DNA of 30,377 bases, taken from IMG/VR virus record IMGVR_UViG_3300022562_001861, positions 1-30,377 of that record, one strand, 5' to 3'. Position 1 is the stretch's first letter; the number at the start of each line of letters is the position of its first letter. The position numbers and the translations under genes were made by a program. This stretch comes from a virus. The notes beneath the pieces are model-generated. The model ran no database searches. It was not told the origin of the DNA and saw only the letters and a program-made list of their open reading frames with translations. Shown here piece by piece: positions 314-28,841 of the stretch.

Positions 314-517
314 ATGTATATAGTCACAGTTTGGAAGCAGCATAATGAGACTGCTTTATTAGACGTAGTGAGACATGTTTGCTGGAACTGGGAAGTTACC
401 AAGCAAAACTGTCTCCTTATCTACGTGGGCGAAAACTCTAAGGAGGATCACAAAATTGTGTATCCTCCTGGAGTTTGGAAGGAAATCAAAGCCTACCGAG
501 AAATTAATGAAGATTGA
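314..517 (+). CDS. Small hypothetical protein (67 aa)
   Basis: Not recognised. A strong GGAGG site lies 5 bases before the ATG. The protein is small and soluble, with several tryptophans and two cysteines and no known motif. Its last 11 bases overlap the start of the HerA-like ATPase gene, so the two are probably translationally coupled. Confidence 0.68.
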   Translation: MYIVTVWKQHNETALLDVVRHVCWNWEVTKQNCLLIYVGENSKEDHKIVYPPGVWKEIKAYREINED

Positions 518-1805
518 GCTAGGTAAGAACACCAAAGGTGTAGTGGAGATGGACACTGGGTTCCTGAACCACCACGTTGCTGTTTTTGGCTCCACTGGCT
601 CTGGTAAGACAGGCCAAGTCATCAGCATGATTGAACAGGCAATGCAGCAAGGCGTTCCTGTGTTCATGGTTGATGTGAAGGGAGACCTAATCAATGCTCT
701 TCAACAAGAAGAGTCCATACTTCAGAAGTTGGATGTCAGGATACTTACTCCCGGCGCCACCCACGGTACCTCAGTCAATCTTTTTCTGGGTCTCAATGAT
801 CCTAACACTGGTATGGCTACTCTTGGAGAGTTGTGCGAGTTGATTGGCATTAGTCGCAATCCTATGCGTAGCAAAGGGTTTGCGTTTCTTGCAGCAGTCG
901 TACAGGATCTACATAAGCGTAAAAAGCCTTGTAGTTTGAGGATACTCATGGAGCAGTGCCAGGAGCCTCAAATCAAAAAGGTTGGTGTGCTACCAGTCGA
1001 AGAAGCAATCTCGCCTAAGATGCGAAAGGACTTGCTTCTTAGGCTCAATGGTTTATTCTGTGATCCAGACATGGCTGACTGGATGCAAGGGATAGACTTG
1101 GACATACCCTGTCTACTCGACTCTAACCCTGATAAGACGCCTGTTATCGTTTACTCGGTCGTGCACCTGGTAAATGATGATGAGCGTCTATTCGCGTTGA
1201 CACTCTTCTTTGAGAAGATGGTGGCATGGATGCGAGAGAAGGGCGGAAAAGAGAAGATGCGTGGGGTCCTCGTCGTTGACGAATGCTACGGCATGATGCC
1301 TCCGCACCCGCAGAACCCTCCTACCAAGCCTCTACTCATGACCATGTTCAAGCAAGGTCGTGACTACGGGCTTGGAGTCATTTGTGCCACTCAGAACCCC
1401 AAAGACGTGTGCTACAAGGTTCTGGGTAACTGCCATACATGGATCGTAGGTAAGCTGCAAACTGACAATGACCGCGGACGCGTCCTAGAAGGTGTTGTTA
1501 GTGCTAGTGGCGGGGATAGGCGTGTACTAGGTAAGGTCATGGCTGGACTAGGCAAGCGTGAGTTTGTCCGTATCCACAATGGAGAAGCTTCCAAGTACTA
1601 CTCTCGTCAGTGCCAAGCTCTTCTGACTGGTCCTTGTTCGATTCCTGAAGTTGAGACTATCCACGCTTGGTTTGACCCTAAGTCTTTTGCCAAGAGGATG
1701 TGGGAGAAGGCTCTAAGTGTCTTCAACAAGGATAAAAGCGATCAGAGCCTCCTTTCTCTGCTACATGCGGAGAATAACTACAGAAAGGCTGGAGGCAGTC
1801 CCTAA
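507..1805 (+). CDS. HerA/FtsK-superfamily ATPase (DUF87-like)
   Basis: A 432-residue P-loop ATPase of the HerA/VirB4/TraG branch. Walker A is GSTGSGKT (28-35). A DVKGD strand motif lies at 56-60, Walker B is VLVVDE (254-259), and the sensor region GRDYGLGVICATQNP (284-298) carries the typical ATQ. Relatives form hexamers that move DNA, in end resection with NurA, in conjugation or in packaging. No NurA-type nuclease is visible next to it. The frame is open upstream to 375, but the ATG at 507 is chosen because it places Walker A at the usual distance from the N-terminus and gives an 11-base overlap with the previous gene. The long HAS-barrel of archaeal HerA is missing. The large terminase lies on the other strand, so this is a second possible DNA-translocating motor. 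Its function is inferred from the fold only. Confidence 0.85.
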   Translation: MKIELGKNTKGVVEMDTGFLNHHVAVFGSTGSGKTGQVISMIEQAMQQGVPVFMVDVKGDLINALQQEESILQKLDVRILTPGATHGTSVNLFLGLNDPNTGMATLGELCELIGISRNPMRSKGFAFLAAVVQDLHKRKKPCSLRILMEQCQEPQIKKVGVLPVEEAISPKMRKDLLLRLNGLFCDPDMADWMQGIDLDIPCLLDSNPDKTPVIVYSVVHLVNDDERLFALTLFFEKMVAWMREKGGKEKMRGVLVVDECYGMMPPHPQNPPTKPLLMTMFKQGRDYGLGVICATQNPKDVCYKVLGNCHTWIVGKLQTDNDRGRVLEGVVSASGGDRRVLGKVMAGLGKREFVRIHNGEASKYYSRQCQALLTGPCSIPEVETIHAWFDPKSFAKRMWEKALSVFNKDKSDQSLLSLLHAENNYRKAGGSP

Positions 1806-3270: not shown

Positions 3271-3690
3271 ATGTCAAACTACAGCTGCAACTTCGTCAAG
3301 CTCCACATCCACGGCACCGATCACGAGACCATTGATCGCAATACTGAAGCAAAGAAAATTGCCAACTTCCTCCAGCAGCATCTGGAGGAACCTCTCATGA
3401 ATCATCCGGTCTACGAGTTCTACGGCATTGAATGCGACATGGAGATCCATGAGGGAGAGCTGCCTGCAGCACCTGCAGCACCTCCTGCTCTCCCTGTCGA
3501 TGTAGAGGGGATCAAGTCTTCACTCAAAGAAGCTATGAGTGACGTGCTTGGTGCAGACGCTAATGTGGACGTCAAGGTCTTCACTGTAGGTGACGGAGCT
3601 GAAAACTCTGGTGCCATTCTCAGGAGAATGACGATTGAAGAGCTTACCTCTCTTCGTGATCGCCTCAATAGCGAGCTGGCGCAACGCTGA
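3271..3690 (+). CDS. Hypothetical protein upstream of NAD+ genes (139 aa)
   Basis: Not recognised. The ATG at 3271 is chosen over an upstream in-frame TTG because AGAGGG lies 5 bases before it. There are two parts: an N-terminal region with HIHGTDHE and an acidic-aromatic stretch (1-70), then a proline/alanine linker (PAAPAAPP, about 73-83) and a C-terminal helix-rich region (85-139). Its TGA overlaps the ATG of the NMN adenylyltransferase (TGATG), so the two are probably co-translated. Whether it helps NAD+ synthesis is unknown. Confidence 0.62.
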   Translation: MSNYSCNFVKLHIHGTDHETIDRNTEAKKIANFLQQHLEEPLMNHPVYEFYGIECDMEIHEGELPAAPAAPPALPVDVEGIKSSLKEAMSDVLGADANVDVKVFTVGDGAENSGAILRRMTIEELTSLRDRLNSELAQR

Positions 3691-4658
3691 TGAGTGTACG
3701 AAGACCTGGAGTGGGTGTTGTTGTTGGGCGATTCCAAGTACCGGAACTAACAGAAGGGCATGTCGCGCTTCTTGAAGAAGCTGGCAAGCATGCCAAGATG
3801 TGTGTAGGTATTGGAGTCTCAAGTCAAACTGTCACTCAGGATGATCCACTAGATTATCCTTCTCGTGAACAGATGCTTCGAGAACAATACTATAAAGCCC
3901 AGATACTACCTATCCACGATCAGCCCCTAGACAGGATGTGGGTACAGACGCTTGATAGGATGGTAAGCACCATCTATCAGTTTGCTCCCATCACATTCTA
4001 TCATGGACGTGATAGTGGTTTTGAAAAGGTCTACAAGGCCAATGGTGGTAGATACGAAGTAGTAGCTATCGATCCCGTAAACAACGTTTCAGGGACGGCG
4101 GAACGTGAAAAAGTCGCACATGGTGTGGAAACATCGCGTGCTTGGCGCGCTGGAGCTATTCATGCTGCTTACAATCAGTGGCCTCGCATTAACTTCTGCG
4201 TGGATATTGGGGTTACCAGGCTCCTCAAGACCGTCAACATGCAGTTTGGTCGATTTGAGCTTCTCGTGGGTTCTCGTGTCGATGAAGGGGGCGCTGTTAG
4301 GCTCCCTGGCGGTCATGTGGATATCACTGATAGTGGCTCATTGGAATCTGCGGTTCGGGAGCTACAGGAAGAGACAGGACTAGAAGCTCTTCCTAGTGAT
4401 CTACACTACGTAGGTAACTTCCGTGTTAAGTCTTGGCGTAAAGCTAAGAACAGCGCCCTCTTCACTAGCTTGTACCATGCTGATTACAAGTTTGGTGCTG
4501 CAAAGGCGATGGATGATATTGATCGCGTTCATTGGATCCCTATAAACGCGATTGATGAAGTAAAGTGGGCAGACGATCACTACATGCTCGCAACCCAGAT
4601 CCGAAGTTACCTATTTCGGGAGACATCAAATGAATCTAAACCTACTGAAGAAGACTGA
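3690..4658 (+). CDS. Bifunctional NMN adenylyltransferase / Nudix hydrolase
   Basis: A 322-residue two-domain enzyme. Residues 1-165 are a nucleotidyltransferase with GRFQ (13-16), TEGH (21-24, the T form of the (H/T)xGH signature) and VSGTAER (133-139, the family's ISxTxxR motif). Residues 166-310 are a Nudix domain with PGGHVD at 206-211 and the metal-binding RELQEETGL at 223-231. The first domain joins NMN and ATP to make NAD+. The second should cleave ADP-ribose or a similar nucleotide. The same fusion occurs in Synechocystis, Francisella and as NatV of Vibrio phage KVP40. The Nudix loop between the two motifs differs slightly in length from the consensus, but the REXXEE core is intact. 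It is followed by and overlaps (29 bases) the NadV gene that makes its substrate. Confidence 0.93.
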   Translation: MSVRRPGVGVVVGRFQVPELTEGHVALLEEAGKHAKMCVGIGVSSQTVTQDDPLDYPSREQMLREQYYKAQILPIHDQPLDRMWVQTLDRMVSTIYQFAPITFYHGRDSGFEKVYKANGGRYEVVAIDPVNNVSGTAEREKVAHGVETSRAWRAGAIHAAYNQWPRINFCVDIGVTRLLKTVNMQFGRFELLVGSRVDEGGAVRLPGGHVDITDSGSLESAVRELQEETGLEALPSDLHYVGNFRVKSWRKAKNSALFTSLYHADYKFGAAKAMDDIDRVHWIPINAIDEVKWADDHYMLATQIRSYLFRETSNESKPTEED

Positions 4659-6036
4659 CTCCTACAAAGTAAGTCAGGCGGTTCAGTATCCTCCTGGTAC
4701 CACACAGATCTATACATATCTTTCAGCACGAGGCTTAGCAGACGACTGGCCTTTTGGAGATGACCTCCCTGAGATGACTTTCTTTGGTCTTCAGTACCAG
4801 ATCAAGAAGTACTTCGAGGGTCAAGTAGTCACTGAAGGAAAGGTGACTGAAGCCAAGAAGTTCTGGGACGCACACTTTGGTGCTCCTGTGTTCCAGGCTG
4901 ACAAGTGGATGTATATCGTTGAGAAGCACAACGGTTACCTTCCCATCCACATCAAGGCTCTCCCTGAAGGTACGGTGGTGCCTGTAGGAACGGTTCTCAT
5001 GACTATTGAGAATACCGATCCTGAATGTTTCTGGCTTACCAACTACCTGGAGACTCTTCTCGTACAGCTTTGGTATCCAAGCGTCATTGCTTCACGCTCT
5101 CGGGAGATGAAGAAGATGCTGTATGCTGCTCTCAAGAAGTCAGGAGATCCTTCTCTTATCGACTTCAAGCTGCATGACTTCGGTTACCGAGGATGCACAT
5201 GTGATGAGCAAGCTGCGATCGGTGGTGCTGCTCATCTCATCAACTTCATGGGCACAGATACAGCTCCAGGACTGGACATGCTCATGGACTACTACAATAC
5301 AGAAATGCCCGGATTTAGTATTCCTGCGACTGAGCACAGCACGATCACCAGTTGGGGTCGTTCACGTGAATCTGATGCTATCCTCAATCACCTCAATCAA
5401 TATCCATCAGGGCTGATTGCGTGTGTAATGGACAGCTACAACGTCTATGATGCTACCCGTGATATAGTGGGTGGTAAGCTCAAAGACAAAATCATGGAGC
5501 GGGACGGTACATTTGTGGTTCGTCCTGATTCAGGGTATCCGCCTTATGTAGTTATAGACCTGCTAGAGATCCTTAGGGATACTTTCGGATGCAAACTGAA
5601 CGAAAAAGGTTACGAAGTACTAGACCCACACGTTCGCATCATTCAGGGTGATGGTATTGACCCTGCGATGCTAGAAAAAGTCTTGACTAGAATGATCGAT
5701 CATGGCTGGAGCGCTGACAACATCGCTTTCGGGTCAGGAGGTGGTCTACTACAGAAAGACGCAAACCGAGATACCTTCAAGTTTGCTGCTAAGTGCAGCT
5801 CCGTTACCATTGATGGTATGGATTTTGAAGTGTATAAGGATCCTGTCACGGACACTGGTAAGCGTTCGTTGAGGGGAAAACGTGCAGTTGTACGTGATGC
5901 TGCGGGACTACCAGTCAATGTCCATGAAGACGACATGGAGGGGCGAGAGAATCTCCTCAAGACTGTCTTCATGAACGGTAAGCTCCTGAAGGAGACCAAC
6001 CTCTCTGAAATGCGGAATCTCAGCACTGTGTGGTAG
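4630..6036 (+). CDS. nadV: Nicotinamide phosphoribosyltransferase (NadV/NAMPT)
   Basis: A 468-residue full-length enzyme converting nicotinamide and PRPP to NMN. Active-site strings match human NAMPT closely: SRSREMKK (about 155-162), GTDTAPGL (D210), PATEHSTITSWG (H236), VVRPDSG (R298 and D300) and GSGGGLLQK near 368. The ATG at 4630 has CGGGAG upstream and lies inside the end of the preceding adenylyltransferase gene, indicating coupled synthesis. The two enzymes complete a two-step route from nicotinamide to NAD+, the pathway known in KVP40 and described as NARP2 in studies of phage resistance to NAD+-depleting defences. A GC-rich inverted repeat follows the stop codon by a few bases. Confidence 0.97.
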   Translation: MNLNLLKKTDSYKVSQAVQYPPGTTQIYTYLSARGLADDWPFGDDLPEMTFFGLQYQIKKYFEGQVVTEGKVTEAKKFWDAHFGAPVFQADKWMYIVEKHNGYLPIHIKALPEGTVVPVGTVLMTIENTDPECFWLTNYLETLLVQLWYPSVIASRSREMKKMLYAALKKSGDPSLIDFKLHDFGYRGCTCDEQAAIGGAAHLINFMGTDTAPGLDMLMDYYNTEMPGFSIPATEHSTITSWGRSRESDAILNHLNQYPSGLIACVMDSYNVYDATRDIVGGKLKDKIMERDGTFVVRPDSGYPPYVVIDLLEILRDTFGCKLNEKGYEVLDPHVRIIQGDGIDPAMLEKVLTRMIDHGWSADNIAFGSGGGLLQKDANRDTFKFAAKCSSVTIDGMDFEVYKDPVTDTGKRSLRGKRAVVRDAAGLPVNVHEDDMEGRENLLKTVFMNGKLLKETNLSEMRNLSTVW

Positions 6037-8462: not shown

Positions 8463-8960
8463 CTATTCTTTGGTCGCTTTCTTTTGTGATGGGCCATACT
8501 CTCTTGTTCCTAAGATGTAGTCAAATAGAGGAGACGTTACTCCCCAGTTAGCGTCTTGATTCTTACCCATATGGTGGTCATAATGCCACGGTACCCACTT
8601 CATCGCCCACTCTGGATGCAGGTGAGAATAACGGTGGATAAGGTAGTAGGAAGCTGCCCCACTAATAAGTGAAGATAGCAGTAGAGGACTGAGAAAGTAG
8701 ATAGGGCTGTGAAGGAGAGCCACACCACAAAGTGCTGCAATCTCCTTGCCCGAAGCGCTCCACGTTGGCCAGCCTGCATAATCATCATCCTTGTAATGAT
8801 TCATTCTGGCCTTTCTGTGGTGCTGTCTCCAATGGAAACTGAAAGGACTGTTAGGTTTCTTACCTAATCCTTTTCCGTGCAAGACATATTTGTGTAAGAA
8901 CCACTCTAAAAACTGGACGTACACTGTCCCCAAAACAATTACAGCTAAATCAGTTCCCAT
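8463..8960 (-). CDS. Fatty-acid hydroxylase / sterol-desaturase superfamily protein
   Basis: A 165-residue membrane di-iron enzyme. The histidine boxes are HKYVLH (23-28), HWRQHH (43-48), HRYSHLH (109-115) and HYDHH (126-130), followed by NWGVTSPLFD (138-147), which is typical of the PF04116 family. Hydrophobic segments around 4-20 and 74-106 would place it in the host membrane. Relatives add hydroxyl groups to fatty acids, sterols or carotenoids using O2. The substrate is not readable here. The size is near that of bacterial beta-carotene hydroxylase, but the C-terminal motif favours the fatty-acid group. The ATG at 8960 overlaps the terminase stop (TAATG); a longer open frame up to 9023 lies inside the terminase gene and is discarded. 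Confidence 0.87.
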   Translation of the reverse strand: MGTDLAVIVLGTVYVQFLEWFLHKYVLHGKGLGKKPNSPFSFHWRQHHRKARMNHYKDDDYAGWPTWSASGKEIAALCGVALLHSPIYFLSPLLLSSLISGAASYYLIHRYSHLHPEWAMKWVPWHYDHHMGKNQDANWGVTSPLFDYILGTREYGPSQKKATKE

Positions 8961-10747
8961 TAATCTTCTCCTGCAAACGCGAACACCGCCCTCCTTGACA
9001 GACGCTCTAACGCAATGTTGCAATAATTGATTGCATGCGTGAAGTGGTCTTCACCAGTAAAGACCCACTCAAACTTTCCTGCTCCTGTATCAGGATTAGT
9101 TTCATTCCATCTCTTGATGTAACGGTGCAAATGAATGAAGAACTTTTCTCTACCAATCGCATGTGCTCTAAGACGTCCTGACTTTTCATCAGTACATGTC
9201 TGTACCAGCGCATCAGGATTAGGGATCTGCCAATCACCGTTCCTGAAGCTAGACAGAGTGAGAACAATACTAAGGTAGCGTCCTAACATAGCTGTGTACT
9301 TGAAGCGTAACTTATCTCCTGCTTTACGGAGACCTGCTTTAGGTTGGGGTCTATCCATCCATTGTACTGCAGATGTTCCTTGTGGATTGTAGAAGGAGAT
9401 GAATGCTCTACCTGGATAAGCTGTACAAAAGTCAATAGCTTCATCATAATTAGGCATACCATCTACGAGCGCCATTTGAACGTTATATTCCCTCATTAGC
9501 TCATGGGCTCTAAACCACGGTGAACGTGGACCATTAGGTCCGTAGTATACTGGATTATTTCTCTCTACAATCTCAATATGTCTGAGACGCTTCTGATTCT
9601 TATACTTAGGATCGATATCAGCGATAGTGATGTAAATGTAACCACCACCTTGATCGATTCCCATAGCAGTCTGTGTCTTGCTGACATCATCACTGCCCCA
9701 ATGTAGCTCAGGATTGATGCATGCTTCTAGCTGCTCCAGTGTGACACCACGATTCTGCTCATCTACGTATGGGATACCAAGCTTAGCGTTGTAGAACTCT
9801 TCCTTGTTGGTAGTTCTCATGAAAGTGTCCCAAATCTCTCTCAGAGAGATGTACTTGGACGCTAACTGTGACACATGGAACGACGTATAGTGTGCTGTAG
9901 GGTCTTGTGCGATATAACGCCCATTCTGTGAGTCTATGATCTTGTACTTGCATCTAGGACACCTAAGGTAAAGCTCCCCACGCTTCTTGTCGTCGACGAC
10001 GCAGTCAGGGAAGGTAGCAGCCAGGTCTACGCCGTCTGGACAGCCACAGAAGCTATGCCAGGTGTGCCTGGTGCCTTCCTGAAATCTCATGTCGATGTCA
10101 GCGCCTGGAAGGCCCGCTGTGGACATGTAGATACGAGGAGCTTTGCCTTCACGTTGGGAGTGAGACATACGCTCTAGGGCCTGGTCGATGTCCTTGCTGT
10201 TACAAAGACGTACCTCATCGAAGGCCATAAAATTCATAGGCATGGAGTCTTTTGAAGCCTGACCACCTAAGTGGAAGACATACAAAGTAGACTGACCTAT
10301 TCTACGCAAAGCTAGTTTAGATCTGTCAGCTTGGTACAAAGACTTGACTGTGGGACATGAGTCAATGACGTCACTGAGGCGGTTCTGTGAAGTGATGTCT
10401 GCTAGGTCTCGTGTTGGCATGTATAGACCCGCAGCTCGGCCTTGATTCTTTTCACAGAACCATAGCAACTTCAAAAGCATGTAGCTCGTTGCACCTAACT
10501 GGGCAGCTTTTCGCCATACGATTTCTTCGTCATCACACAAGTAAATTGGTAATAAATACCTGTGATATTCAAAGTCTATTTTATTACCGTCGATAGTAGC
10601 GCCGCTGGTCTGGGTCCATAGCGCAAACGAGTCATCAGAAAGCTTTGCCAAGTCGGCGATGCTGACATCCTCTGGCTTGATCTTAGGCTTGCTGACTATT
10701 ATTGACGAGTTGTACTTTGACTGTCTATTCTCCAGTTGTGTTGTCAC
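8960..10747 (-). CDS. Phage terminase large subunit (gpA-like)
   Basis: A 595-residue packaging motor and nuclease of the lambda gpA family. The Walker A-like region is RKAAQLGATSY (79-89), aligned with lambda's non-classical KSARVGYSK. Walker B is FMAFDE (173-178). A zinc knuckle is seen with C234/C236 and CPRC (263-266). Acidic residues fitting the RNase H-like nuclease are D365 (GIDQG), D429 (LVDG) and D567 (EDH). The start is GTG at 10747 with GAGGGA 6 bases upstream. It drives ATP-dependent DNA filling of the prohead and cuts the concatemer. No portal or capsid gene follows it inside the window, which is unusual for lambda-like packaging blocks. A hydroxylase gene follows instead. Confidence 0.92.
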   Translation of the reverse strand: MTTQLENRQSKYNSSIIVSKPKIKPEDVSIADLAKLSDDSFALWTQTSGATIDGNKIDFEYHRYLLPIYLCDDEEIVWRKAAQLGATSYMLLKLLWFCEKNQGRAAGLYMPTRDLADITSQNRLSDVIDSCPTVKSLYQADRSKLALRRIGQSTLYVFHLGGQASKDSMPMNFMAFDEVRLCNSKDIDQALERMSHSQREGKAPRIYMSTAGLPGADIDMRFQEGTRHTWHSFCGCPDGVDLAATFPDCVVDDKKRGELYLRCPRCKYKIIDSQNGRYIAQDPTAHYTSFHVSQLASKYISLREIWDTFMRTTNKEEFYNAKLGIPYVDEQNRGVTLEQLEACINPELHWGSDDVSKTQTAMGIDQGGGYIYITIADIDPKYKNQKRLRHIEIVERNNPVYYGPNGPRSPWFRAHELMREYNVQMALVDGMPNYDEAIDFCTAYPGRAFISFYNPQGTSAVQWMDRPQPKAGLRKAGDKLRFKYTAMLGRYLSIVLTLSSFRNGDWQIPNPDALVQTCTDEKSGRLRAHAIGREKFFIHLHRYIKRWNETNPDTGAGKFEWVFTGEDHFTHAINYCNIALERLSRRAVFAFAGED

Positions 10748-24889: not shown

Positions 24890-25088
24890 CGTAGGCTTCA
24901 CTTAGAGTAAACTCTATACGATCAAAGCACTCAGTACAACCATCACAGTAATCCTGAAAGTGACAGTCTTTGATCGTTTGACCTTCTTTAGTCCACCCAT
25001 CAGACCAAGAGTTTAGAGACCACCCATGCATTGTCACGTATGCTATCTGGTGTATCTCAAAGTGAGAGGGAACGTCTATAGAAGCCAA
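24843..25088 (-). CDS. Small protein with cysteine cluster (81 aa)
   Basis: Unknown. GGAGG lies 6 bases before a TTG at 25088, inside the end of the exchanger gene, so TTG is taken as start; a GTG at 25106 has no such site. Residues about 42-54 hold CHFQDYCDGCTEC, a likely metal-binding knuckle. The acidic end is low in complexity. It may be translationally coupled to the exchanger. Confidence 0.55.
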   Translation of the reverse strand: MASIDVPSHFEIHQIAYVTMHGWSLNSWSDGWTKEGQTIKDCHFQDYCDGCTECFDRIEFTLSEAYDVQSKTKDSDQSLEE

Positions 25089-26089
25089 CCTAATCCTCCT
25101 AGCCACAACCCGAATAGCCCGAGGAGCATCACACCGTGGTGTACCTTGAGCTTCTTTGGTATCAGGAATAGTGCCAAGACGACAGCCGTGACACAGACTA
25201 ACCCGATACGCAAAGATTGGACATGAGCAGCCGTGCCTGCAGCACTGATATGGACGTCCCCATAGACTAGCCCATACACGAGCAGAGGCAAGCCCAGACA
25301 GACCGTGATATCGAAGATGTTGGAACCTATAGCGTTTGCAATAGCGTCGTCGTAATCACCCTTCTTGGCGTCTTTCAAAGAGATGATTGTGTCAGGAACT
25401 GAAGTGGCAGCTGCACCAAATACTACAGCTGTAAGGAATGCAGGTACTTCCCAAGCCTGTGCCAGGGCGACAACTGCCCACGAGAGTCCGTAACATAGGA
25501 CACCAATGAATGTGGCAGACACACTAAGGTAAAGCCATGCTTTACCTGCAGTCATCTCTTCCTCGTCATCATCATCATCATCATCTTCTTCCTGTGGATT
25601 GGCGCGTCTATAGTTGCGAGTCTGCAACCACAAGAAGGATAGATACCAGAGATATACACACAACAACCCCAGTCCCATGTACCAGTCAAGAGTGGTTCCT
25701 GAGAGAAGTGCGATAAGGATCAGTTCAGCTGCAATGAAGAAGAGACCGTCTCGTATGACTGTCTTCTTATCCAATGTAATGGACGTATGCTGCTTTCCCC
25801 AAGTCACCGTCAGAACAATCAATGCAGGGATGATGACTGCATTGAAAACAGCGCTTCCTGCACAAGTAGCAATGCCTGCAGAGAAGCCGTCTACATCTTT
25901 GAAGAAGAACAGCAGACAGAAGGTGGTCAGTAACTCTGGAAGGGAGGAACCAATGGCGTTGATAGTTGCCCCTCTAACTCCTGGTGGGAAAGCTTTCCCA
26001 ACAAAGTCAGAGCCAGCCTCGAAATAATCACAAGCCTTTGCTATTCCAATAGATGCGCCGACGATCATCAGCAACGCAATTAATGTCAT
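25076..26089 (-). CDS. Sodium/calcium exchanger family (CaCA) membrane antiporter
   Basis: A 337-residue, about ten-pass membrane protein with the two inverted alpha repeats of the CaCA family: NAIGSSLPELLTT (44-56) with GSAVFNAVI (78-86), and GAAATSVPDTIISL (225-238) with NAIGSNIFDITV (252-263). The central cytoplasmic loop has a run of acidic residues, EEDDDDDDDEEE (167-178), reminiscent of Ca2+-binding loops of eukaryotic exchangers. It would move Ca2+ (or another cation) across the host membrane in exchange for Na+, H+ or K+. The start ATG overlaps the preceding gene by 4 bases. Phage-encoded cation exchangers are rare. It stands in the same leftward region as TerD, vWA and TerB-like genes, which suggests a shared Ca2+ role. 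Confidence 0.92.
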   Translation of the reverse strand: MTLIALLMIVGASIGIAKACDYFEAGSDFVGKAFPPGVRGATINAIGSSLPELLTTFCLLFFFKDVDGFSAGIATCAGSAVFNAVIIPALIVLTVTWGKQHTSITLDKKTVIRDGLFFIAAELILIALLSGTTLDWYMGLGLLCVYLWYLSFLWLQTRNYRRANPQEEDDDDDDDEEEMTAGKAWLYLSVSATFIGVLCYGLSWAVVALAQAWEVPAFLTAVVFGAAATSVPDTIISLKDAKKGDYDDAIANAIGSNIFDITVCLGLPLLVYGLVYGDVHISAAGTAAHVQSLRIGLVCVTAVVLALFLIPKKLKVHHGVMLLGLFGLWLGGLGWLL

Positions 26090-26214
26090 TTGATACTCTC
26101 CTCTAGATCCATTAACACTCCAAGCACAACAAAGATTCCCCGGAGTGGCAGGCTAAGCGCGTACATCACAGGGAAAAGGGCTACGAATGCTATAAAACCT
26201 ATTACACCATACAT
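26086..26214 (-). CDS. Small membrane protein (42 aa)
   Basis: Unknown. The ATG at 26214 is chosen because GGAGG lies 4-5 bases upstream, and the longer frame to 26268 would run into the terminator at 26246-26281. It has one long hydrophobic stretch (residues about 2-34, possibly two helices), ending acidic. It is coupled to the exchanger by ATGA, so it may be a partner subunit. It is the first gene after a terminator, so it would rely on read-through or on its own promoter in the 30 bases between. Confidence 0.55.
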   Translation of the reverse strand: MYGVIGFIAFVALFPVMYALSLPLRGIFVVLGVLMDLEESIK

Positions 26215-26245
26215 AGAGCCTCCATTAACATAATTACCCCCAACT

Positions 26246-26281
26246 AAAAAACCCCCTGTAACCTTCAAAAGTTACAGGGGG
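26246..26281 (-). terminator. Intrinsic terminator after the TerB-like gene
   Basis: CCCCCTGTAAC (26252-26262) pairs perfectly with GTTACAGGGGG (26271-26281). On the minus strand six T follow (26246-26251). It ends the transcript that carries the gene at 26302-26979. Confidence 0.95.
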
Positions 26282-26301
26282 CCGACCTTACAGGTAGGTC
26301 T

Positions 26302-26979
26302 TCAGTTCGACGAGAGATACATGTCGAACAAGAACTGTACATCCGCAGGAATGTCACCCTGCGCATTGGTCTTGAGATTGCTCAGAAGAGCCTTCTCCGT
26401 CTCATCCACCTGCCCATCTCCATGGATCTTCTCCTTGAGGTACGCAGCCTCATCGGAATCGATCACACCGGGACTGGTGTCATCTTCCAACACGTAGCTG
26501 GAGATGCTGTCCACAAACAGCTGAGTCCAGCTCGGGTCATTGGCACGACCCGACACAACGTCATTGAGATCGAAGATGAAGTCTGCTTCCTCACGGTCGA
26601 TCTTGCCATCTGCATAGATGGCGGTGCGGATCTGAGTGACCTCCTCCGCATCGATCACACCATCCGCAAGGACGGCAGCCTTCAAACTCTCCAAAGTTAC
26701 TTCTTGTTGTTCAGTCATGTTTTTTCTCTCTCGTTCTACTACCTGTGTTATTTCGTACAGATGGAAAGCACGTTCATCCTCTCCATCGAAGCAGCCTTTC
26801 CAAGGGTCTCCCAGAAAGTCTACTACGTACACTATCTTGTCTCCACACCTTGGAATACTCGCATAGAGTTGTCCATGTCGGAGACGAACATATGCTACTT
26901 GTTCCCCGTCATAATAAACATCGTACTGTTCAGGACAAGCAGTACATGTTTGTACAAAACGGTAAGGGCCTATGTTCAT
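26302..26979 (-). CDS. Fused CPEQYDV-domain and TerB-like/EF-hand-like protein (225 aa)
   Basis: Residues 1-87 are a small beta-rich domain with ACPEQYDVYYDGEQVAYVRL and DGEDERAFHL, a pattern seen in other phage and bacterial hypothetical proteins. Residues 88-225 hold four units of the form DGxIDxxE (LADGVIDAEE, YADGKIDREE, PGVIDSDE, GDGQVDETE), in the manner of TerB-like or EF-hand-like proteins of tellurite-resistance loci. The DG-ID-E pattern suggests Ca2+ binding. The ATG at 26718 (residue 88) has GAGAGA upstream, so a separate TerB-like product may also be made. It is followed by a terminator and then the exchanger block. TerD and vWA genes lie upstream. Confidence 0.72.
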   Translation of the reverse strand: MNIGPYRFVQTCTACPEQYDVYYDGEQVAYVRLRHGQLYASIPRCGDKIVYVVDFLGDPWKGCFDGEDERAFHLYEITQVVERERKNMTEQQEVTLESLKAAVLADGVIDAEEVTQIRTAIYADGKIDREEADFIFDLNDVVSGRANDPSWTQLFVDSISSYVLEDDTSPGVIDSDEAAYLKEKIHGDGQVDETEKALLSNLKTNAQGDIPADVQFLFDMYLSSN

Positions 26980-27347
26980 AGCCTACTTATTCCTTCGAGT
27001 TTTAGTTCAACTCGAAACTGTTCTATCTCATATTCATCTAAGTAAGTAGGTTCCCTATTGATATACATCACACGTTTAGGTGAAATGCGTTTTAGTTCTT
27101 CCCACTCACCTTCTTCAGTCAGGCAGTAAAGGAAATGATAGCCTGACTGCTCAATGACGCGATAGTACTTTTTGTCGAGGTACATTGCACACTCACCGCG
27201 CAAGAACTCCCTCTTGACTTTTACCTTCTTGCTAATGGTCTTATGCCTAGTCAATGGTGTTTTTACAAAGGTGCCAGCGTCTGGACTCACCCACCAGTCA
27301 ACCTTATGTTTCTTGATTTTGTACAGGCTATGTGACAAAATAGGCAC
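26976..27347 (-). CDS. Hypothetical protein (123 aa)
   Basis: Not recognised. It begins with a GTG at 27347 that overlaps the last bases of the tRNA-like RNA, and the true start may lie later; no good ribosome site is seen. It has a basic N-terminal half (KISKKVKVKREF) and a strand-rich, aromatic C-terminal half (YHFLYCLTEEGEWEELKRI). It ends in an ATGA overlap with the fused TerB-like gene. Confidence 0.5.
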   Translation of the reverse strand: MPILSHSLYKIKKHKVDWWVSPDAGTFVKTPLTRHKTISKKVKVKREFLRGECAMYLDKKYYRVIEQSGYHFLYCLTEEGEWEELKRISPKRVMYINREPTYLDEYEIEQFRVELKLEGISRL

Positions 27348-27527
27348 CCGGGGCAGGAGTCGAACCTACTAAACGTCTTTCAACACAGTAAGTCTCGTCG
27401 TATCTATTCTCTTACTGACAAAGCCGTCACTTTGCTTTCAGACCAACAACAAGATATTTCACTACCTTAGGTGCACCTTAGGGTAGCTTTACCGTGTTTC
27501 GCTGTCCACCGCCAGCGTTGCCCGAGT
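27345..27527 (-). ncRNA. tRNA-like structured RNA with long insert
   Basis: On the minus strand, ACTCGGG (27527-27521) pairs with CCCGGGT (27352-27346) as a 7-bp acceptor-like stem with one wobble. A T-arm GTAGG-TTCGACT-CCTGC (27369-27353) has the canonical T-loop. A D-like arm CGCT/AGCG (27500-27503, 27514-27517) and an anticodon-like stem AACAC/GTGTT (27498-27494, 27386-27382) enclose about 107 bases. The enclosed part has its own hairpins, including CAGTAAG/CTTACTG (27417-27411, 27392-27386). The discriminator would be G27345 and no CCA is encoded. Options are a tRNA with an insert, a reduced tmRNA-like molecule or a processing signal. It is probably functional, as the pairings are perfect or near perfect. 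Confidence 0.5.
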
Positions 27528-27583
27528 AAAAAACCAGCAGGGTAGGCTAAGGATTGATTCTGTTGAATCACCTACCCTGCTGG
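27528..27583 (-). terminator. Intrinsic terminator after the vWA gene
   Basis: CCAGCAGGGTAGG (27534-27546) pairs perfectly with CCTACCCTGCTGG (27571-27583). An inner hairpin GATTC/GAATC sits in the loop. Six T follow on the minus strand (27528-27533). It ends the TerD-vWA transcript, directly at the 5' base of the tRNA-like RNA. Confidence 0.95.
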
Positions 27584-27592
27584 TACAACGAA

Positions 27593-28261
27593 CTAAGCGT
27601 TACGTGCCAACCACGCTAGCTGTCCATAGCTCAGTCCTTCGGCTTCTGCGGCAGTAACACAAGCGACCACATCGATCGAACCCATGTCATTGTCGAGCTT
27701 GTCCAGGAACTGAGCTGCACCTGGATCGTTACCCACCTGTACTAGCGTGAAGCCGATCCTTGGACGTCCAAACTCCTTGGCTGCTGACTTGATGGCTTTG
27801 ATGACAGCTCCTTCGCTGTCAGGACGACCATCTGTGTAACCAATGATGACGACATCCTTATCGGACATACGTGCTTTGGATACAGCGTCATTGATTGCAG
27901 CTGCAAGGTTAGTGCTTCCCATGTTCCCGAAGCGACTGAAAGCGTCATGGACGTTTGCAGCAGTGACTCCGTCGAACATACGAGACATTGAGCCGAAGGC
28001 GACCAACGTAAGTCCGTCGTCGTCGTACTGTTCAGCCTCGCGTGCAATGGCTCCTGCCACCTCTTCTACCTCACCTAGACGATCACGTCCGGGCATACGG
28101 TTGGAGGCAATACCCATGGAACCTGAGCAGTCCACGAGCATGATGGCATCGAGCTTGGAAAGCTCTTCAGCCGAAAGACTTGGCGTTACATCTTTGCCAA
28201 TCGGATCTTTCGGCTTGATCTCCTGACCTTGGTCAGGTTCTTTCTTTGAAAACCAACCCAT
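27593..28261 (-). CDS. von Willebrand factor A domain protein (Ter-associated)
   Basis: A 222-residue protein with a complete metal-ion-dependent adhesion site: D44-C-S46-G-S48 (MLVDCSGSMG), T117 (GSTNLAAAI) and D144 (GYTDGRPDSEG). The first 30 residues are hydrophilic (MGWFSKKEPDQG). It resembles TerF/TerY-type vWA proteins that accompany TerD, which bind divalent metal and act as scaffold partners in stress responses. It is read after the TerD gene with 37 bases between, and it is followed by a strong terminator. Confidence 0.85.
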   Translation of the reverse strand: MGWFSKKEPDQGQEIKPKDPIGKDVTPSLSAEELSKLDAIMLVDCSGSMGIASNRMPGRDRLGEVEEVAGAIAREAEQYDDDGLTLVAFGSMSRMFDGVTAANVHDAFSRFGNMGSTNLAAAINDAVSKARMSDKDVVIIGYTDGRPDSEGAVIKAIKSAAKEFGRPRIGFTLVQVGNDPGAAQFLDKLDNDMGSIDVVACVTAAEAEGLSYGQLAWLARNA

Positions 28262-28298
28262 TCTGCTTCTTTCGTAAAGGTTTGCGAAGAAGCAGTGT

Positions 28299-28841
28299 TC
28301 AGGCTGCTGTGACGATGTCCCAGAGCTGCTGGGAGTTCTGGAGACCCTTGAGCGTGCCGACCTTGCTCTCGTTCACCAGCTGCGCACCGATGGGAGAGGT
28401 GTTGTCGATCTTGGCAAGCACAAGCACGTTGCCTACGTCACCCGTATCGAGAGCAACCATGTTGGTGTTGCCCTTGTCATCCACGATGGAGACCTGGACA
28501 TCACTTCCTGCGAAACGAGCCTTGTCACCCTTCTGAATGGCACCGTAGTCCCATACCACGAGGTGAACCTCGCTCATCTCTTCCAAAGAAGTGATGCGCA
28601 TGGTCTCTTCATTGCCGCCCGAATCGACTGTGTCACCCACACCCGCATCGCCAGAGAGCTTCATGTAAGGGTAGCCCTGCAGGTCACCCTTCTCACCGAA
28701 GTAGACCATACCAGTCTTGCCCGTCTTGTCTTTGTAGATGGCTGCGAGATCGAAATCTGCACCCGTCTTCCAGCTCATCTTGACCATGAGCTGCTTCAAG
28801 GACTCCAACGTTGCTGCTCCACCCTTTTGCTTGATATCCAT
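28299..28841 (-). CDS. TerD-family stress/tellurite-resistance protein
   Basis: A 180-residue protein of the TerD/TerE/CabC group. MSWKTGADFDLAAIYKDK, then YFGEKGDLQGYPYMKLSGDAGVGD and the NEETMRI strand match the family's Ca2+-binding core with its many conserved acidic and glycine residues. A second half VVALDTGDVGNVLVLAKIDNT continues the fold. TerD proteins bind Ca2+, act at the inner membrane and confer resistance to tellurite, colicins and some phages in bacteria. ATG at 28841 has AGGAGAGAG upstream. It is the first gene of the Ter block and is followed by the vWA gene. Confidence 0.9.
   Translation of the reverse strand: MDIKQKGGAATLESLKQLMVKMSWKTGADFDLAAIYKDKTGKTGMVYFGEKGDLQGYPYMKLSGDAGVGDTVDSGGNEETMRITSLEEMSEVHLVVWDYGAIQKGDKARFAGSDVQVSIVDDKGNTNMVALDTGDVGNVLVLAKIDNTSPIGAQLVNESKVGTLKGLQNSQQLWDIVTAA

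Follow-up and report, generated by a model that had tools for sequence, protein, structure and literature searches.

A phage-borne Ter gene set with a CaCA-type exchanger in the apparent position of TerC

The bacterial Ter systems (terZABCDEF; B. subtilis yceCDE-meeF) combine TerD paralogues, TerB and/or vWA proteins, and one integral membrane transport protein in a single gene cluster. In B. subtilis, yceCDE is joined to a TerC protein with Mn efflux activity, and TerC proteins (MeeF/MeeY) act in the metalation of exported enzymes (PMC10550928). The yceCDE products are TerD paralogues. The function of Ter proteins has remained open for decades, and “tellurite resistance” is widely thought not to be their real role. 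Tailed phages also carry Ter operons, as in Caulobacter phage CcrColossus, Rhizobium phage RHph_TM39, and Klebsiella phage FBKp34, where TerD and vWA genes lie next to a TerC/DUF475 transporter gene, TelA is present, and no CaCA gene is found (PMC7824862). The Jug phages encode a Ca2+-translocating P-type ATPase in genomes that also carry terD genes, although this transporter belongs to an unrelated family and is not reported as adjacent to terD (PMC12363816). The CaCA superfamily exchangers, such as human NCX1, NCX_Mj, NCLX, and CAX, share two alpha repeats and the same fold. Here, we describe a Ter gene set in which such an exchanger accompanies the Ter genes and TerC is absent.

We analyzed a 30,377-nucleotide stretch of viral DNA (IMG/VR record IMGVR_UViG_3300022562_001861, positions 1 to 30,377; hereafter called the “window”). 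A preliminary description, based on the sequence alone, had noted that a TerD protein, a vWA protein with a full MIDAS, a TerB-like protein with four DGxIDxxE units, and a CaCA antiporter with an acidic loop lie within 3.8 kb on one strand, interrupted by two terminators. This observation is confirmed: all four genes are present on the minus strand between positions 25076 and 28841, and both terminators are real by sequence (Table 1). The account of the acidic repeats requires correction, however. Of the four units, two fit the motif exactly (DGVIDAEE and DGKIDREE), while the other two are degenerate (PGVIDSDE and DGQVDETE). We rejected their reading as EF-hands, because loop positions 1 and 3 are not acidic, and they are instead TerB-type motifs.

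Table 1. Features of the Ter-exchanger region in the window
Coordinates	Strand	Feature	Support
28299..28841	-	TerD-family protein (180 aa), divergent	profile of phage TerDs, 1.8e-9; predicted structure
27593..28261	-	vWA protein of TerF-like type (222 aa), complete MIDAS	PF10138, 6.3e-6, below cut-off
27528..27583	-	intrinsic terminator after vWA (CCAGCAGGGTAGG...CCTACCCTGCTGG-TTTTTT)	read from the sequence; loop too long for the terminator scan
26976..27347	-	123-aa protein of unknown function between vWA and TerB	ORF; no convincing family; not found conserved in the other loci
26302..26979	-	TerB-like protein (225 aa): residues 1-85 phage-specific domain, residues 95-217 TerB/DUF533-like with four acidic motifs	TerB/DUF533, 2e-4 and 4e-4, below cut-off
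26246..26283	-	intrinsic terminator after TerB (15-pair stem, then TTTTTT)	terminator scan and sequence
26086..26214	-	putative 42-aa hydrophobic membrane peptide, GGAGG ribosome site, overlapping the exchanger start by 4 nt (ATGA)	sequence alone
25076..26089	-	CaCA-superfamily exchanger (337 aa), NCX/NCKX-like alpha repeats, acidic loop DDDDDDDEEE at about residues 168-178	PF01699, 2 stretches, 2.4e-34

The TerD-like protein is not detected by the Pfam TerD profile (PF02342) even at E<=1, but it is found by a profile that we built from 19 Pfam-confirmed phage TerDs. Its predicted structure (pLDDT 85.9) has the TerD fold, with TerD 3ibz as the top Foldseek hit (1.8e-6) and Z scores of 14.2 to 3ibz and 12.3 to 2kxt, the latter of which is titled a calcium-binding protein. 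The residues W24, D29, D31, D65, G69, and E78 are invariant across 37 homologues, and the acidic residues D29, D31, D65, and E78 among them are the proposed Ca2+ ligands, by analogy with TerD structures. In the vWA protein, the MIDAS residues D44-x-S46-x-S48, T117, and D144 are all invariant in five homologues. Its PF10138 (vWA-TerF-like) score of 26.9 bits lies below the cut-off of 29.4, while the homologues in three of the 17 exchanger-phage records (L008, L012, and L016) exceed it. Similarly, the TerB-like protein scores 21.2 bits against the Pfam TerB cut-off of 24.4, and its homologue in L012 reaches 27.4; we therefore call it TerB-like only. Residues 7-85 of this protein form a separate phage domain (phrog_21607, 5.5e-20). 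The TerB-like family is shared by 7 of 15 phage loci. An Rfam search found no RNA at positions 27300-27640.

The predicted structure of the exchanger (AF2 pLDDT 91.9) matches the fold of human NCX1 (Z 38.0, rmsd 2.7 over 323 residues) and of NCX_Mj (Z about 25). Its residues E52, N83, D233, and D260 align with the ion-site positions E54, N81, E213, and D240 of NCX_Mj, and are invariant in 95 homologues. The exchanger differs from these proteins in that it lacks the NCX regulatory domain, has D233 in place of the NCX_Mj Glu (as in NCX1), and is genetically tied to Ter proteins.

How widespread is this gene arrangement? Single-protein scans of IMG/VR with the window exchanger, TerD, or vWA found nothing, and megablast revealed no near relative, whereas alignment queries did find related sequences. 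Searches with the exchanger gave 13 other dereplicated phage loci. In 12 of them, TerD and/or TerB, sometimes with vWA, lies within about 3 kb upstream on the same strand, while the 13th starts at its contig edge. Pfam searches over whole records placed TerD or TerB next to the exchanger in all of the phage lineages found. The gene order and strand are conserved, and the exchanger is usually the last gene. One contig, L016, has the same order as the window, TerD-vWA-TerB-CaCA, and there TerB stops right before the CaCA start. TerD itself is rare in phages, as tblastn searches with two TerDs found 48 and 97 of 50,697 records. The vWA and TerB genes are each missing from several loci, so not all of the parts are essential. 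Exchanger hits in human-faecal “Bacteriophage sp.” records were rejected as bacterial contamination, based on their gene content, and were used only as an outgroup, and a plasmid search gave only distant haloarchaeal exchangers. In the exchanger tree, the 15 phage sequences require 4 to 6 label changes, but several branches are long, and thus the number of acquisitions is unsure. The exchanger phages among isolates are from marine hosts, and Pseudoalteromonas phage J2-1 is an example of an isolated marine phage carrying the module.

The same exchanger subfamily is present in the Ter clusters of marine bacteria. Among 80 bacterial exchanger loci, 23 have TerD within 10 kb. Of 39 genomes with an unlinked exchanger, 35 have no TerD, and the ordinary CaCA paralogue in the same genomes is not TerD-linked. 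The window TerD, TerB (over 123 aa), and CaCA proteins are 53%, 58%, and 50% identical, respectively, to the products of consecutive genes of one bacterial locus, L037, indicating their co-inheritance. We found no paper in the literature searched that links TerD, phage, and an exchanger, although part of the bacterial linkage may already be described in the 2012 survey of Ter systems (Anantharaman et al.), which this search did not cover.

The most informative result is the mutual exclusion of the exchanger and TerC, which the preliminary description missed. No TerC profile (PF03741) hit was found in the window, which is a fragment, or in any of the 16 other exchanger-phage records, which also include fragments. 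In contrast, 11 of 11 TerD-phage records without the exchanger have TerC, and 0 of 11 have CaCA (Fisher p = 4.7e-8 by record, 1.2e-6 after dereplication, and 2.8e-6 for records of at least 70 kb). Within the N4-like Vibrio phages, BUCT194 has TerD-TerB-TerC, while K479 and D520 have TerB-CaCA. Moreover, no exchanger locus, phage or bacterial, gave a TerC profile hit. The exchanger thus appears to occupy the slot of TerC as the membrane arm of a Ter module.

We consider it more likely than not that this is a phage-borne Ter module in which a CaCA exchanger replaces TerC as the membrane transport arm. The comparisons establish that the module is conserved, that the exchanger is its usual last gene, and that CaCA and TerC exclude each other, whereas the activities of the proteins, including transport by the exchanger and metal binding by the Ter proteins, are inferred. 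In this view, the exchanger would use the Na+ (or H+) gradient of the host to move Ca2+, or another divalent cation, out of the cytoplasm. TerD, the MIDAS vWA protein, and the TerB-like protein would bind that metal at or near the inner face of the membrane, and buffer it, sense it, or gate the exchanger. During infection, this would hold cytosolic Ca2+ low and keep the damaged envelope working long enough for the phage to finish, and any effects on competing phages would be a by-product. Calcium export is the best inference from the parts, but the direction of transport cannot be deduced from sequence, and the cargo could be Mn2+ or another divalent ion, since TerC moves Mn2+. In addition, the two terminators in the window separate TerD-vWA, TerB, and CaCA, so they are not one simple transcript. 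The interpretation in the preliminary description is partly supported. Its central proposal, that these genes form a functional set, passed the test that it had itself set, as the neighbourhood recurs in unrelated phages and in bacteria, and the exchanger retains its acidic ion-site residues. Its suggestion of calcium handling fits the parts only by inference, and its suggestion of superinfection exclusion found no support here.

A broader reading is possible but remains tentative: TerC and the CaCA exchanger may be interchangeable membrane arms of one system whose real job is the export of divalent cations, mainly Ca2+, under membrane stress, with TerD, TerB, and vWA as metal-sensing or metal-delivering regulators. 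Several phage lineages would then have acquired the exchanger version to control host cytosolic Ca2+ during infection. Ter clusters with TerC are already known in bacteria and phages, and the membrane protein here is a CaCA exchanger, not TerC. The swap of TerC for a transporter of a well-understood superfamily provides a concrete hypothesis about the cargo (Ca2+ or a related divalent ion) and simple, two-gene phage systems in which it can be addressed. It also adds a calcium-exchanger route to the few known ways in which phages might control host ions.

Among the alternatives, superinfection exclusion or envelope defence survives best, although it is unlikely and remains speculative. The module would change the membrane of the infected cell or its Ca2+ balance, so that competing phages or colicins cannot enter. 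Bacterial ter operons are linked to phage inhibition and colicin resistance, and jumbo-phage Ter genes were proposed to act against superinfecting phages (PMC7824862). However, no PADLOC defence model matched any of eight module proteins, and the same exchanger-Ter unit occurs in bacterial chromosomes as an ordinary gene cluster. Second, and slightly less probable, the exchanger may deliver a metal across the membrane to load exported or envelope proteins useful to the phage, as in the metalation role of TerC, whose place it takes. CaCA and TerC are different families, though, and no exported metalloprotein partner was seen in the loci. Third, and about as doubtful, the module may be a host-fitness moron, a captured bacterial stress cluster that raises the tolerance of the host to Ca2+, metals, or osmotic stress during slow or carrier-state infection, with no role in lytic growth. 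The closest relatives of all three genes lie in one bacterial locus and the isolates come from marine hosts, but the module is present in presumably lytic phages, such as the N4-like group, and is maintained in many lineages. Finally, a chance or hitch-hiking neighbourhood within a variable accessory region, to which the two terminators and the differing other neighbours between loci might point, is very unlikely and is already contradicted by the same-strand co-location in all informative dereplicated loci, the near-constant order, the TerC/CaCA exclusion, and the bacterial linkage.

The 30,377-base window, an IMG/VR virus record, is a tailed-phage fragment that encodes a terminase large subunit, an RNA ligase, ThyX, a dNMP kinase, an SbcC-like end and NAD-salvage genes. 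The four genes named in the preliminary description are all present where it placed them on the minus strand, and its observation therefore holds. In the transcribed order, they form the arrangement TerD, vWA, a 123-aa protein, TerB-like, a small peptide and CaCA. The TerD protein is too divergent to be detected by Pfam, while a profile of Pfam-confirmed phage TerDs finds it at 1.8e-9. In addition, its predicted structure matches solved TerD structures with Z scores of 12 to 14, far above the unrelated entries at about 4.5. The TerB-like protein is a fusion, in which residues 7-85 match a phage domain (phrog_21607) and residues 95-217 are TerB-like. This phage-specific domain is annotated as “F-box domain protein” in Acinetobacter and Cronobacter phages, and it stands alone in other phages. 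The vWA and TerB-like proteins of the window miss their Pfam cut-offs, and are named by homology to clearer relatives. The acidic repeats, which had been described as EF-hand-like, are not EF-hands. Two intrinsic terminators split the block, and we infer from the sequence that the exchanger probably has its own short message, together with a 42-aa hydrophobic peptide that overlaps its start codon by 4 nt. Neither ARAGORN nor Rfam calls a tRNA at the tRNA-like sequence in this block.

Additional features of the window and of the bacterial contig L037, with their positions
Sequence	Position	Strand	Feature
Window	375-1805		Protein with a terminase-type PHROG match; also matches FtsK-like families
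Window	3690-6036		Adjacent nucleotidyltransferase/Nudix protein and nicotinamide phosphoribosyltransferase, an NAD+ salvage pair
Window	8960-10747		Protein with a terminase-type PHROG match; clear terminase large subunit
Window	26725-26979	minus	Residues 1-85 of the TerB-like protein, phage-specific domain (phrog_21607)
Window	27340-27470	minus	Sequence resembling the 3′ half of a tRNA (GGTTCGACTCC...CCGGGTGCC), between vWA and the 123-aa gene
L037	74-3679		Tubulin-like protein (PF13809) gene, upstream of the TerD-TerB-CaCA-TerD cluster

Is the association of the exchanger with the Ter genes more than chance? First, a tblastn search with the exchanger found only 38 of 50,697 phage records at E<=1e-5, all of them from Vibrio or Pseudoalteromonas phages. 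These records fall into a handful of groups according to the size of the genome and the match, and we read one or two representatives of each group. Each of these representatives has TerD or TerB beside the exchanger: three TerDs in D69, D93 and 1.084.O, two TerDs plus vWA in J2-1, and TerB in K479 and D520. The phage exchangers (loci L002, L003, L006 and L007) are annotated only as “hypothetical protein” in public records, so the module has been easy to overlook. The “Bacteriophage sp.” faecal records in the phage collection (L010 and L011; MT835791, MT835841 and similar) look like bacterial genome fragments, with ABC transporter, oxidoreductase and sensor genes, and would mislead surveys of phage transporters. 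Second, alignment-based scans of IMG/VR, some records of which are fragments, gave ten further contigs. Nine of them have TerD and/or TerB within 3 kb of the exchanger, while the tenth (L019) starts at the exchanger and thus lacks the upstream side. After near relatives were merged, there are 14 phage loci including the window, of which 13 are informative, and all 13 are linked. The Ter genes are on the same strand and upstream in every informative locus, and one locus (L025) has a further TerB downstream. The locus L016 has TerD-vWA-TerB-CaCA, the same order as the window, with the TerB stop codon immediately before the exchanger start. By contrast, two TerD queries reach only 48 and 97 of the 50,697 phage records, so linkage by chance is not plausible. 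No paper found in our literature search, which did not extend to the principal survey of Ter systems, mentions the exchanger linkage for phages, although the linkage in bacteria may have been noted before.

The exchanger appears to take the place of TerC. None of the 17 exchanger-phage records, which include the window and other fragments, has a TerC (PF03741). We then took eleven phage records that carry TerD but no exchanger of this kind, including the jumbo phage ME3. All eleven have TerC, within about 3 kb of TerD, and none has any Na_Ca_ex protein. These records were chosen on TerD and not on TerC, although TerC in the Caulobacter jumbo phages was already reported (PMC7824862). Fisher's exact test gives 4.7e-8 by record, 1.2e-6 after dereplication, and 2.8e-6 with only the records of at least 70 kb, although relatedness between the phages makes these values optimistic. 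Moreover, the swap is seen directly among the N4-like Vibrio phages: BUCT194 (Schitoviridae) has TerD-TerB-TerC, while K479 and D520, which are annotated with N4-like RNA polymerase, have TerB-CaCA.

Next, we investigated whether the same unit occurs in bacteria. A scan of 84,980 species genomes returned the 80 best homologues of the exchanger, mainly from marine Bacteroidota and Proteobacteria. In 23 of the 80, TerD lies within 10 kb, and a TerC profile hits none of the exchanger loci. Of the 39 genomes tested in which the exchanger is not linked, 35 have no TerD at all, and the exceptions are three Flammeovirga and one alphaproteobacterial MAG. In the genomes with linkage, the ordinary shorter CaCA paralogue is not near TerD. 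The TerD, TerB and CaCA of the window are 53%, 58% and 50% identical, respectively, to three consecutive genes of the bacterial contig L037, so the unit seems to travel as a whole. In a tree of 97 exchangers, 13 of the 15 phage sequences fall in one supported group, together with L037 and a few other bacterial loci. At least four label changes are needed, so acquisition was probably repeated, though long branches make the number unsure.

How does the module probably work? The predicted structure of the exchanger is confident (pLDDT 91.9), and matches human NCX1 (Z 38.0, 2.7 Å over 323 residues), NCLX, CAX and NCX_Mj. The residues that align with the NCX_Mj ion ligands (E52, N83, D233 and D260) are invariant in all 95 homologues. 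TerD from Klebsiella was solved as a calcium-binding protein, according to the title of the 2kxt entry. The MIDAS sites of vWA proteins hold a divalent metal. In addition, TerC proteins have Mn efflux activity, and one of them is encoded in the B. subtilis stress operon yceCDE-meeF (PMC10550928). The simplest reading is that the cytosolic Ter proteins handle a divalent metal and pass it to, or gate, one membrane exporter, which is TerC in most systems and a CaCA exchanger here. In this view, the gene content, conservation, order, mutual exclusion, predicted fold and ion-site residues are what our analyses establish, while the cargo, the direction of transport, the physical contact and the benefit to the phage are inferred. 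The interpretation in the preliminary description is partly supported, in that the genes appear to form a linked set, but no result here speaks for its suggestion of superinfection exclusion. This role was proposed for the jumbo-phage Ter genes (PMC7824862), and it remains possible.

The window has an NAD+ salvage pair that includes a nicotinamide phosphoribosyltransferase. Vibrio phage D69 also has NMN adenylyltransferase and PnuC genes about 6 kb from its exchanger, and Aeromonas phage BUCT695 has the phosphoribosyltransferase just upstream of its TerC-TerD genes.
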